A DNA stretch of 64,000 bases from Stenotrophomonas sp. 364 (GTDB lineage: Bacteria; Pseudomonadota; Gammaproteobacteria; Xanthomonadales; Xanthomonadaceae): NCBI RefSeq assembly GCF_009832905.1, contig NZ_CP047135.1, positions 2,520,001-2,584,000 on the forward strand, given 5' to 3'. Shown piece after piece: positions 11,452-13,998 of this stretch. The stretch's first letter is position 1. Each line of letters opens with the position of its first letter. The notes under the pieces are model-generated. The model was given only the letters and a program-made list of their open reading frames with translations, was not told the DNA's origin and did not search any database. The position numbers were made by a program, and so were the translations under genes.

Positions 11452-12786
11452 ATGCGAACGAGCCGCCTGTGGGCACTACTGCTTGCCACCGTCGCCCTGC
11501 CTGCCGCCGCCGAGCCGATCCTGCTGGAGAACGCGCGCGTCTTCGATGGCCAGCGCGATCGCGGCATCACCCCGGTGCTGATCGATGGCGCCCGCATCGT
11601 GCATATCGGCACGCCCCTGCCCGCTGCCGCCACCGGCGCGCGCCGCATCGATTACACCGGCAAGACGCTGCTGCCTGCGCTGGTCAGCGACCACGCGCAT
11701 GTGGGCAACACCCAGGGACTGGAGCACGGCGACCGCTACTACACGCGCGACAACGTGGTGCGCGACCTGCGCCAGTTCCAGCGCTACGGCATCACCACCG
11801 TCACCGCGCTGGGCATGAATGGGGCGGATTTCTTCGCCATCCGCACGGAAGTGAACGCCGATCCCGCCCTGGGCGCGCAACTGTACGGTGCTGGCGGCGG
11901 GATCGGCGCGCCCGATGGCGCACCATCTGCGGACAGCATGGGCCTGCGCCACGACCCGGTCGCGCGCCCGCGCACCGCCGAACAGGCGCGCGCGGCGGTG
12001 GCCACCCAGCACGCCGACGGCGTGGACCTGATCAAGCTGTGGGTGGACGACCTTGGCGGCAAGCGCCCGATGATGACCCCGGAGGTATACCGCGCCGCGA
12101 TCGCCGAAGCGCACGCGAGGGGCCTCACGGTGGCCGCGCACATCCACGACCTCGATCAGGCCCGCGACCTGGTCGATGCCAAGGTGGACATCCTGGCCCA
12201 CGGCATCCGCGACCGCGCGGTCGACCCGATGCTGGCCAGGAAAATGCGCGACCAGGGCACGTGGTACATCCCGACGGTGGCCATCGACGAGGCCAACTAC
12301 TGGTACGCCGAACACCCGCAGGCGCTGCAGCAGCCGTTCCTGCGCCAGGCCCTGCACCGCGACGTGCTGGCCCGTTGGTCGCAGCCGGCGTGGCAGCGCG
12401 CGCAACTGGCCGGCAGCGGCATTCCGGCCGCGCGGGCGGCCGTGGCGACCAACCTGGAGAACGTGCGCCGCCTGCAGGCGGCCGGGGTCAAGCTGGGTTT
12501 CGGCACCGATGCCGGTGCGATGCCGCAGCGGGTGATCGGCGTTGCCGAGCACCGCGAGCTGCAGTTGCTGGTGCAGGCCGGGCTTACGCCTGCGCAGGCA
12601 CTGCAGATCGCCACGTCGCAGGCGGCGGACCTGCTGGGCCTGGCCGACCGTGGCCGGATCGCCGCCGGCAAGCGCGCCGACCTGCTGGTGCTGGACGCCG
12701 ACCCGCTCACCGACATCGCAAACACCCAGCGCATCGGCGCGGTCTGGCAGGCCGGGCAGGAAGTGGCCGGTCCGATCACGGAGTAA
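11452..12786 (+). CDS. Secreted amidohydrolase-superfamily metal-dependent hydrolase
   Basis: The 444-residue protein has a cleavable signal peptide (MRTSRLWALLLATVALPAAA, cut near residue 21). The TIM-barrel amidohydrolase marks are the N-terminal metal pair DHAHVG, the candidate bridging Lys in LIKLWVDDLGG, the metal His in VAAHIHD and ILAHGIRD, and the catalytic Asp in GFGTDAGAM. The C-terminal small beta domain ends GRIAAGKRADLLVLDADPLT. It resembles imidazolonepropionase-like or prolidase-type secreted amidohydrolases. The natural substrate is unknown. It starts 74 bp after the MFS gene, so the two may be co-transcribed. Confidence 0.88.
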   Translation: MRTSRLWALLLATVALPAAAEPILLENARVFDGQRDRGITPVLIDGARIVHIGTPLPAAATGARRIDYTGKTLLPALVSDHAHVGNTQGLEHGDRYYTRDNVVRDLRQFQRYGITTVTALGMNGADFFAIRTEVNADPALGAQLYGAGGGIGAPDGAPSADSMGLRHDPVARPRTAEQARAAVATQHADGVDLIKLWVDDLGGKRPMMTPEVYRAAIAEAHARGLTVAAHIHDLDQARDLVDAKVDILAHGIRDRAVDPMLARKMRDQGTWYIPTVAIDEANYWYAEHPQALQQPFLRQALHRDVLARWSQPAWQRAQLAGSGIPAARAAVATNLENVRRLQAAGVKLGFGTDAGAMPQRVIGVAEHRELQLLVQAGLTPAQALQIATSQAADLLGLADRGRIAAGKRADLLVLDADPLTDIANTQRIGAVWQAGQEVAGPITE

Positions 12787-12848
12787 TCCCCGGGTTCTTC
12801 GCCCCTACGCGAGGTAAGCAGAAACTGCCTTGACGCTTTCCAGGCGCA

Positions 12849-12980
12849 GCTGTCGGCGGGTCGGGCGCTGGGCCCCATGCCCTTTCCGGCGAATGTCCCC
12901 CGGCGTCGGCCTGCGGCCGCCACCTCCTCCTTTATTTCGCCTCCAAGGGCATGGGGCCCAGCGCCCGACCCACCGACAGC
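12849..12980. repeat. Long hairpin element A (45-bp arms around a 42-bp core)
   Basis: The arms 12849-12893 and 12936-12980 are near-complete reverse complements, sharing GTCGGGCGCTGGGCCCCATG with one mismatch in the first 35 bp and a small bulge near the loop. The enclosed core 12894-12935 begins TGTCCCCCGG and ends CCTCCTCCTTTAT. The same core, inverted, lies inside element B 42 bp away with different arms. No coding sequence spans it. Function unknown. Confidence 0.85.
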
Positions 12981-13021
12981 CATCCCAAAAGCGTGGCTTC
13001 CATCTGCGCACCGCAAGCCGA

Positions 13022-13120
13022 GCCCCGTAGCAGCCGGTAGGCGCCTGGGCAAAATAAAGGAGGAGGCCGCCCCGCGGCCGGGGGACATTTGCGCCAGGGG
13101 CCTACCGGCTGCTACGGGGC
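13022..13120. repeat. Long hairpin element B (same core as element A, inverted; different arms)
   Basis: The arms 13022-13053 and 13088-13120 pair over about 32 bp (GCCCCGTAGCAGCCGGTAGG and its complement). The core 13054-13087 reads ATAAAGGAGGAGG through GGGGGACA, which is the reverse complement of the ends of element A's core. A and B thus share a core but have unrelated arms. On the plus strand the core carries an AAAGGAGGAGG run resembling a Shine-Dalgarno sequence. Confidence 0.85.
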
Positions 13121-13235
13121 CCTCACGCTCGCGACCGGCCCGATCGGAGACGCCAGCCGATCCAAACGGCGCCTGCACACACGGCAACCCGCGTCGCGTC
13201 ATGCTCACTCTGCGACGGCTCGGGAAAAGAACCAC

Positions 13236-13264
13236 AAAAAGAAGGGCGCCGTTCGGCGCCCTTC
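13236..13264 (-). terminator. Intrinsic terminator of the DUF2058/slyX/ugd group
   Basis: A perfect 10-bp stem GAAGGGCGCC/GGCGCCCTTC with a four-base loop lies 20 bp past the DUF2058 stop. Read on the minus strand it is followed by five T residues. Confidence 0.88.
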
Positions 13265-13284
13265 TTCGTCGCGCGATCGACCGC

Positions 13285-13998
13285 TTACCAGACCAGGTCG
13301 TCGGGCACCTGGTAGGCCGGGTCGGCGTACGGGTCGGCATCGGCGGTGGCATTGGGATCCACGCGCAGCGCCACCGACGGCGCGAAGATGGCTTCGGCCT
13401 CGTCGAGCACGGCCGCGGTTACCAGCAGGTAACGGCCGTTCTGCTGCAGCACGCCCAGCTCGCCGGCGTTGAGCGCCTTGAGCTGGTCGGCGGTGACGTA
13501 CACGCGCTTGATCTTGCCGCCGTAGTTGAAGTGACGGGCAATCTCGGCGCCGGCGTCATTCAACGACTTGCCGTCCAGCAGCACGTCCAGCTTGGCCTTG
13601 GCTTCGCGGCGCAGGCGCGCTTCTTCCTGCTTCAGGCGCTCGGCTTCGATGCGGTCGTCTTTCTCCTTCTGCGCACGGATCGCGTAGGCCTTGGCCAGGT
13701 CGATGTCCTCGCGCGAACGCGGCTTGCCCTGGCCGGCGTTCTGGCCCTGGCCGGGACGCGGGCCACCGCCCGGGCGGCCCTTGCCGTGCGGTGCGCGGCG
13801 CGAGGCATCGCCCTCGCGCGGCGGACGCCCCGGGGCACCCTCACGCGGCGGGCGCGCTTCGCCGGGCTTGCCCGGGGGACGTGCACCGTGGGGTTTGTTG
13901 CCCGGCCGGCCGTCACGGCGGGCATCGGGTTTGCGTTCTGGCTTGGGCGCGGATTTGAAACCCAGGCCCAGCAGCTGGTCGCGGAGTGTATCGCTCAT
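13285..13998 (-). CDS. DUF2058 (YaiL-like) protein
   Basis: The 237-residue protein begins MSDTLRDQLLGLGFKSAPKP, a typical DUF2058 N-terminus. A Pro/Arg/Gly-rich basic linker (about residues 18-95, several PPREG-type repeats) follows, then a charged helix (EKDDRIEAERLKQEEARLRREAK) and the conserved domain (ARHFNYGGKIKRVYVTADQL). E. coli YaiL is described as nucleoprotein/polynucleotide-associated, and the basic linker is consistent with nucleic-acid contact, but no activity is established. The linker is longer than usual. It is the last gene of a minus-strand group with slyX and ugd. Confidence 0.85.
   Translation of the reverse strand: MSDTLRDQLLGLGFKSAPKPERKPDARRDGRPGNKPHGARPPGKPGEARPPREGAPGRPPREGDASRRAPHGKGRPGGGPRPGQGQNAGQGKPRSREDIDLAKAYAIRAQKEKDDRIEAERLKQEEARLRREAKAKLDVLLDGKSLNDAGAEIARHFNYGGKIKRVYVTADQLKALNAGELGVLQQNGRYLLVTAAVLDEAEAIFAPSVALRVDPNATADADPYADPAYQVPDDLVW

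Follow-up and report, generated by a model that had tools for sequence, protein, structure and literature searches.

The double hairpin is placed between the convergent 3′ ends of a plus-strand amidohydrolase gene, ending upstream at 12786, and a minus-strand DUF2058 gene (13285-13998) downstream, positions being those of the window (the whole 64,000-nucleotide stretch of DNA analysed). Hairpin A (12849-12980, with its purine-loop strand being the minus strand) has arms of 45 nt each (12849-12893 and 12936-12980) that are 91% complementary and enclose a minus-strand core at 12894-12937, which contains an inner stem and reads TGTCCCCC...CTCCTCCTTTATTT on the plus strand and AAATAAAGGAGGAG...GGGGGACA on the minus strand. 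A spacer that has no strand (12981-13021) separates it from hairpin B (13022-13120, purine loop on the plus strand), in which arms of 34 nt (13022-13055 and 13087-13120) are 88% complementary and the plus-strand core (13052-13087) runs from AAATAAAGGAGGAG through an inner stem to GGGGGACA, such that the cores of A and B are inverted copies of one sequence. The fold of region 12840-13130 has a free energy of -199 kcal/mol, where shuffled sequences average -139.3 kcal/mol (z -10.46) and none of 200 is as low. The initial annotation described two adjacent hairpins with a shared inverted core and unrelated self-complementary arms, which the arm complementarity and z score confirm; the 45-nt arms given for A stand, while those of B are 34 nt rather than about 32. 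The genome contains 23 exact matches to the core pattern TGTCCCCN{8,38}TCCTCCTTTATTT versus none for the reversed control, and covariance model R1 matches 12862-12966 on the minus strand, inside hairpin A. No Rfam family reached its gathering score in 12300-13700, the best match lying below threshold, and no sigma-70 promoter-like site was detected in 12700-13320.

The repeated feature is larger than the 12849-13120 originally delineated. The 272-bp double hairpin is present in the genome as 12 full-length copies, including that in the window, plus partial ones, at unrelated places, and when the 12 full copies were aligned with their flanks conservation ran past the hairpins to short inverted repeats, GGTTCTTCnCCC. 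The whole mobile unit is a gene-free MITE of 441 bp (12793-13233, no strand), with a left terminal inverted repeat GGTTCTTCGCCC on the plus strand (12793-12804) that matches ISL3-family element ends in the congener G310 and a right terminal inverted repeat on the minus strand (13222-13233), reading GGTTCTTTTCCC on that strand. The orthologous site in G330 breaks at the same ends, with a related unit in the opposite orientation and similarity ending at query positions 443/444 and 870/878. In-place inversion of the whole element at this site was rejected as the left junctions differ, a difference which probably indicates a separate insertion into the same place. At another copy in the window's own genome (G000, position 4703597) empty sites were found in G334, G328 and G332, the insertion being common to G000 and G330. 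The filled site reads ...CGCG-CTTTTTTT-GGTTCTTC...GAAGAAC-CTTTTTTT-CCGG... and the empty sites ...CGCG-ATTTATTT-CCGG (G334) and ...TGCA-CTTTATTT-CCGG (G328), with CTTTTTTT flanking the copy on both sides as a target duplication of 7-8 bp, depending on the counting of one shared C. At the remaining G000 copies the flanks match only in part. A record titled Bacillus subtilis SK7B5 (L138, JAHREJ010000002.1) carries Stenotrophomonas-type hairpins and ends and is probably contaminated or mislabelled.

Five complete 1310-bp ISL3-family copies are found in G310, with ends GGTTCTTCACCCAACTCC and GGTTCTTCTCCCATCTGAGGGGAGAAGGCGCA and 8-bp target duplications that are perfect in four of the five and agree at 7 of 8 bases in the fifth. 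The MITE end sequence GGTTCTTCnCCCATCTGAG is common to the MITE and these five copies. In G334 many contigs break off about 55 nt into a repeated element that has the same ends as the G310 copies (GGTTCTTCTCCCATCTGAGG and GGTTCTTCACCCAACTCCGG), the latter end matching annotated ISL3-family transposase elements in plasmids, and an ISL3 copy in X. sacchari has TTTTTTTT on either flank. The shared ends and the target duplication indicate that the unit is an ISL3-type MITE in this Stenotrophomonas-like genus. At 441 bp with no gene the MITE is without its own transposase, and a genome search found ISL3 transposase (PF01610) absent from G000, such that the mobiliser must be supplied, now or in the past, by another source. 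None was found in the contigs searched of G330 and G334, and a search of 25 genomes gave a match in seven, over the cut-off in five. From these sequence comparisons the unit is predicted to be moved in trans by an ISL3-type transposase in Stenotrophomonas. At two G334 contig ends (L296, L307) an ISL3 element is inserted in the A/T-rich TTTATTT part of the hairpin core.

The 266 hairpins collected from these and other core copies fall into 48 arm families by greedy clustering, an alternative clustering having chained 252 of the 266 together. It had been proposed from the two hairpins in the window that arms vary while pairing persists, and this holds for most of the other core copies, with arms self-pairing better than 99% of between-family swapped arms in 44 of the 48 families (those below this mark being L071, L096, L145 and L164). 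RNAalifold analysis of 54 representatives gave 34 pairs, 30 of them with changes on both sides, with 89.3% of cells paired versus 59.4% when shuffled. The covariation was 0.705 versus 0.181 for shuffled alignments (0 of 500 shuffles reaching it) and at most 0.178 when slid, the slide control favouring the structure because this was derived from the same alignment. Among same-locus orthologues (15 comparisons), 22 double changes keep a pair and four do not, while 32 single changes keep a pair and 39 break one, 12 of the 39 falling in one comparison that is apparently indel-shifted; on these counts pairing is kept on balance, not perfectly. Two explanations had been offered for the changing arms, selection on the fold or an unusual amplification mechanism that rewrites arms symmetrically. 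The former is the better reading, and the latter is not needed since the full-length copies within the genome have near-identical arms and are ordinary transposition copies. Purine-purine mismatches (A.G, G.A) at columns 24/84 and 26/82 of alignment A1, adjoining GCGAA/TTCGC pairs, seem to be kept in many Comamonadaceae hairpins.

Oppositely oriented hairpin pairs have different arm families in 85 of 86 cases (the exception being L084), while random re-pairing within groups gave an expectation of 16.4 same-family pairs with a minimum of seven in 1000 trials. The two hairpins of a pair probably differ in their arms because equal inverted arms would pair together, destroying both. Cores without complementary flanks, which would speak against a kept fold, do exist, as a few hairpins only (L091, L134, L145, L176); with their mismatched arms, these appear to have arisen by recombination between the paired hairpins of one unit. 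The inside of hairpin A is inverted, with its arms kept, in 2 of the 12 full copies in G000 (L021 at 3472012 and L014 at 2136639), as would be expected of recombination between its arms.

The mismatches tolerated within the arms differ by strand. On the AAATAAAGGAGGAG strand G.U exceeds A.C in 36 families, with A.C exceeding G.U in one and 11 tied (p 5.5e-10), and the family-weighted totals are 76.9 versus 11.6. In keeping with this, purine-purine mismatches exceed pyrimidine-pyrimidine mismatches in 34 families, with the reverse in two and 12 tied (family-weighted totals 69.5 versus 11.3), and the opposite strand has, unweighted, 390 A.C and 66 G.T. Of the 54 representatives, 53 reach a lower minimum free energy on the AAATAAAGGAGGAG strand. 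The asymmetry speaks for selection acting on a single-stranded form of one strand, whether RNA or, as in HUH transposition, strand-specific ssDNA, and it falls short of proving RNA since a strand-specific ssDNA fold would likewise favour G.T over A.C. The ssDNA reading is less likely, at least in Stenotrophomonas, because of the target duplication and the lack of any link to Y1_Tnp genes (see below), and as such the fold of one strand is most likely kept as RNA.

The internal loop on the AAATAAAGGAGGAG strand is AUAAAGGRGGA opposite GGRGGACA, the inner part being GGRGG/GGRGG. Across the 266 hairpins the two R positions are A/G in 232, G/A in 22, A/A in seven and G/G in none, with the loop one base shorter in five. 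The 22 hairpins are those in which AAAGGGGGAG replaces AAAGGAGGAG with a matching change across the loop, which points to structure rather than to a string for binding the ribosomal anti-Shine-Dalgarno, as had been suggested for the core. The G/A state is mainly that of one Stenotrophomonas hairpin lineage and so represents few independent events. Likewise, the invariance of the core is in part built in, most loci having been retrieved by means of the core pattern itself, and copies without an exact core were reached only by the genus-wide DNA search and the covariance search. Judged from what is kept and what varies, the loop is likely the functional part, for recognition or tertiary structure, with the stems only holding it. 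With quadruplexes allowed, ViennaRNA predicted them in 8 of 54 purine strands and in none of 54 pyrimidine strands.

The intrinsic terminator of the minus-strand neighbour (13238-13267, minus strand) has a T-tract that reaches the right end of the unit in the window and is of the insertion target type. By a mechanical terminator test, the T-tract of an intrinsic terminator abuts an end in 15 of 20 copies, and a terminator is present at 15 of 33 recognised unit ends (up to three mismatches being accepted, so that some are doubtful) versus 39 of 4000 random positions. The ISL3 copies in G310 themselves show the same T-tract and terminator habit, and as such ISL3 target choice accounts for the location of units next to terminators. 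Gene context was assessed with a home-made gene finder for loci among the core matches listed from named records, in which the 84 units with both neighbours called lie in 53 tandem, 25 convergent and six divergent gaps versus 147, 52 and 69 for other gaps. Units are depleted in divergent gaps (p 1.2e-4), the convergent excess is marginal (p 0.05), and 4 of 110 units lie inside a predicted gene. This avoidance of divergent gaps (6/84) and the adjacency to terminators would also be consistent with units acting only as transcription-end devices, either extra terminators or 3′-end stabilisers in which the loop letters are incidental, and long helices do suit RNase III action or exonuclease barriers. 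Terminators and barriers need no kept internal loop, however, let alone one showing paired A/G to G/A changes, and the adjacency already follows from a target choice seen for the insertion sequence itself, making this unlikely to be the whole explanation.

In their inverted arrangement the hairpin pairs recall REP dimers and REPINs, GTAG repeats have been reported to contain wobble pairs, and S. maltophilia has TIRYTs with self-complementary TIR families (PMC3733652). Each is in keeping with REP/BIME/REPIN-like elements moved as ssDNA hairpins by a RAYT/TIRYT (Y1 HUH) transposase, in which the strand asymmetry would reflect ssDNA folding. Yet no core is present, even with mismatches allowed, at any of the 24 Y1_Tnp loci searched (PF01797; two in G000 and 22 in 17 core-positive family genomes), and Y1_Tnp is absent from 4 of these 17 genomes, including G169, a single contig that is 99% complete and has 21 cores. 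The ends of the Y1_Tnp genes carry GGGGTCAG-type or GTAG-type repeats, and the 7-8 bp target duplication at the empty site also counts against such movement. A RAYT/REP link is disfavoured in Stenotrophomonas on the absence of cores near Y1_Tnp, and overall this explanation is improbable. The hairpins had been set apart from SMAG/REP repeats from the outset, a distinction upheld by the Y1_Tnp loci and by the lack of a GTAG head; no GTAG/CGTC tag is kept at the arm foot in alignment A1, the GTAG letters in hairpin B belonging to one arm family only. Both Y1_Tnp genes in G000 (L039, L040) lie within GTAG-type REP arrays unrelated to the hairpins.

Correction of quasi-palindromes by template switching is an established process that rewrites both arms, and it could generate the 22 same-locus double changes with no selection on the fold. 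It predicts, however, no preference for G.U over A.C, for which 36 families to one were seen, would tend to bring the internal loop into pairing, whereas it has stayed unpaired, and does not predict that the hairpins of a pair differ, all of which make neutral correction a very improbable account. Strand-biased mutation without selection, drawing on the known C-to-T bias on the non-template strand of transcribed DNA, is the most doubtful source of the G.U excess (76.9 versus 11.6), as transitions do not explain the purine-purine excess (69.5 versus 11.3) beside it.

The hairpins extend beyond the Stenotrophomonas MITE. The core pattern is present in 18 of 297 family genomes and 6 of 54 genera, with none for the reversed control, and the core matches listed include named Variovorax, Ramlibacter, Hydrogenophaga, Rhodoferax, Lysobacter, Pseudoxanthomonas and Stagnimonas records. 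The exact core is absent from the 16 other genomes of the same genus in that search, yet a DNA search identified relatives of the unit at 69-90% across the genus, and the covariance model, run over 369 class genomes, matched six at E <= 0.001, of which G401 and G490 are weak. On these matches the hairpin module is wider than the MITE, occurring in Lysobacteraceae, Comamonadaceae and others. Among the matches listed, 55 of 59 neighbouring core pairs less than 300 bp apart face each other. No plasmid copies of the core were found, while viral core matches occur in five stretches, the two examined (L189, L190) being without paired arms. In two loci units occur in tandem with alternating A and B hairpins in a BIME-like arrangement, three units in L260 (G301:C1:1090300-1092000) and two in L259 (G341).

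An ISL3-like end lies within 250 bp of 8 of the 117 non-Stenotrophomonas units among the matches listed. Scanning for an end plus a duplication outside Stenotrophomonas gave 1 of 66 versus 1 when shuffled, in a scan that also missed known G000 copies and so had little power. Variovorax-type units (L078, L097 and L125, for example) have ends TGTTCAGGGCG...CGCCCTGAACA, unlike ISL3 ends, and to judge from these a different mobiliser is likely. No mobiliser for these units was found, no clean empty site was readable in their loci, and reading frames clustered around cores (clusters judged by size and position) include no recurring recognisable transposase. None of the matches listed has a convergent core pair 300-6000 bp apart, as in an autonomous version.

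Taken together we consider it probable that the unit is a non-autonomous transposable element with paired structured hairpins, moved in trans by an ISL3 transposase and with the fold of the AAATAAAGGAGGAG strand kept, most likely in RNA. Movement in Stenotrophomonas would involve an ISL3-family transposase recognising the GGTTCTTCnCCC ends and inserting at 8-bp A/T-rich sites, often in the T-tract of an intrinsic terminator; as the duplicated target is itself a T-tract, T-runs are left on both sides of the element. Maintenance, as comparison suggests, would be of each hairpin as a single-strand fold of the AAATAAAGGAGGAG strand, in which about 30 base pairs of nearly unconstrained sequence make up the outer helix, followed by an asymmetric purine internal loop and then by an inner stem that is likewise free to vary. 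Because the hairpins face opposite ways, each strand would carry one purine-type hairpin in either orientation of the unit. One guess is that the loop is read on transcripts extending beyond gene ends, by an RNA-binding protein or a nuclease of the host. More tentatively, the symmetric GGRGG/GGRGG loop could conceivably form a compact non-canonical core (for example a two-layer G-quadruplex, or G.G and A.G pairs) between freely varying helices, in a natural RNA module that transposons of more than one kind would have spread over two bacterial orders, always as hetero-pairs so that each strand has one. Fluorogenic aptamers obtained by selection, Spinach among them, are known to have this layout.

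The usual view of bacterial MITEs is that they are insertion-sequence debris. Here most other letters of a small module have changed across Lysobacteraceae and Comamonadaceae, yet its purine loop and its strand-specific fold are retained. The 48 arm families amount to a set of natural variants with which to ask what reads the loop, and hetero-pairing offers a simple reason for unrelated arms in inverted hairpin pairs. The portions of the literature returned by searches on the core sequence, on REP with Variovorax, on ISL3 with MITE, Stenotrophomonas or terminators, and on Xanthomonadaceae MITE hairpins contain no description of the element.

ERIC/RU and NEMIS/Correia are bacterial MITE-like repeats giving stable RNA hairpins; by their general descriptions, they are not known to include members with free arms around a kept purine loop or with hetero-paired hairpins. 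The TIR families of S. maltophilia TIRYTs come from the same genus group and are likewise self-complementary repeats lying close together with a GGGG-containing motif, which is given as GGGGWSAS for the TIRYT-linked repeats (Di Nocera and colleagues, PMC3733652). That motif, as described there, does not fit GGGGACAT, and no TIRYT gene lies beside the cores searched. REP dimers, BIMEs and REPINs are similarly short, non-coding inverted pairs, intergenic and in many copies, with varying arms and pairing kept. The unit differs in having arms of 30-45 pairs versus small stems, kept letters in the internal loop rather than at the foot, terminal inverted repeats with a target duplication, and no link to Y1_Tnp. 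With ISL3 MITEs and insertion sequences the unit shares the GGTTCTTCnCCC ends, the 8-bp A/T-rich target duplication and insertion in T-tracts, with no gene inside the unit. As far as seen, its interior does not represent a deleted transposase gene; it is a hairpin pair that also occurs in other orders without ISL3 ends. What appears to be new, on these comparisons, is an ISL3 MITE carrying as cargo a hairpin module kept by its fold.
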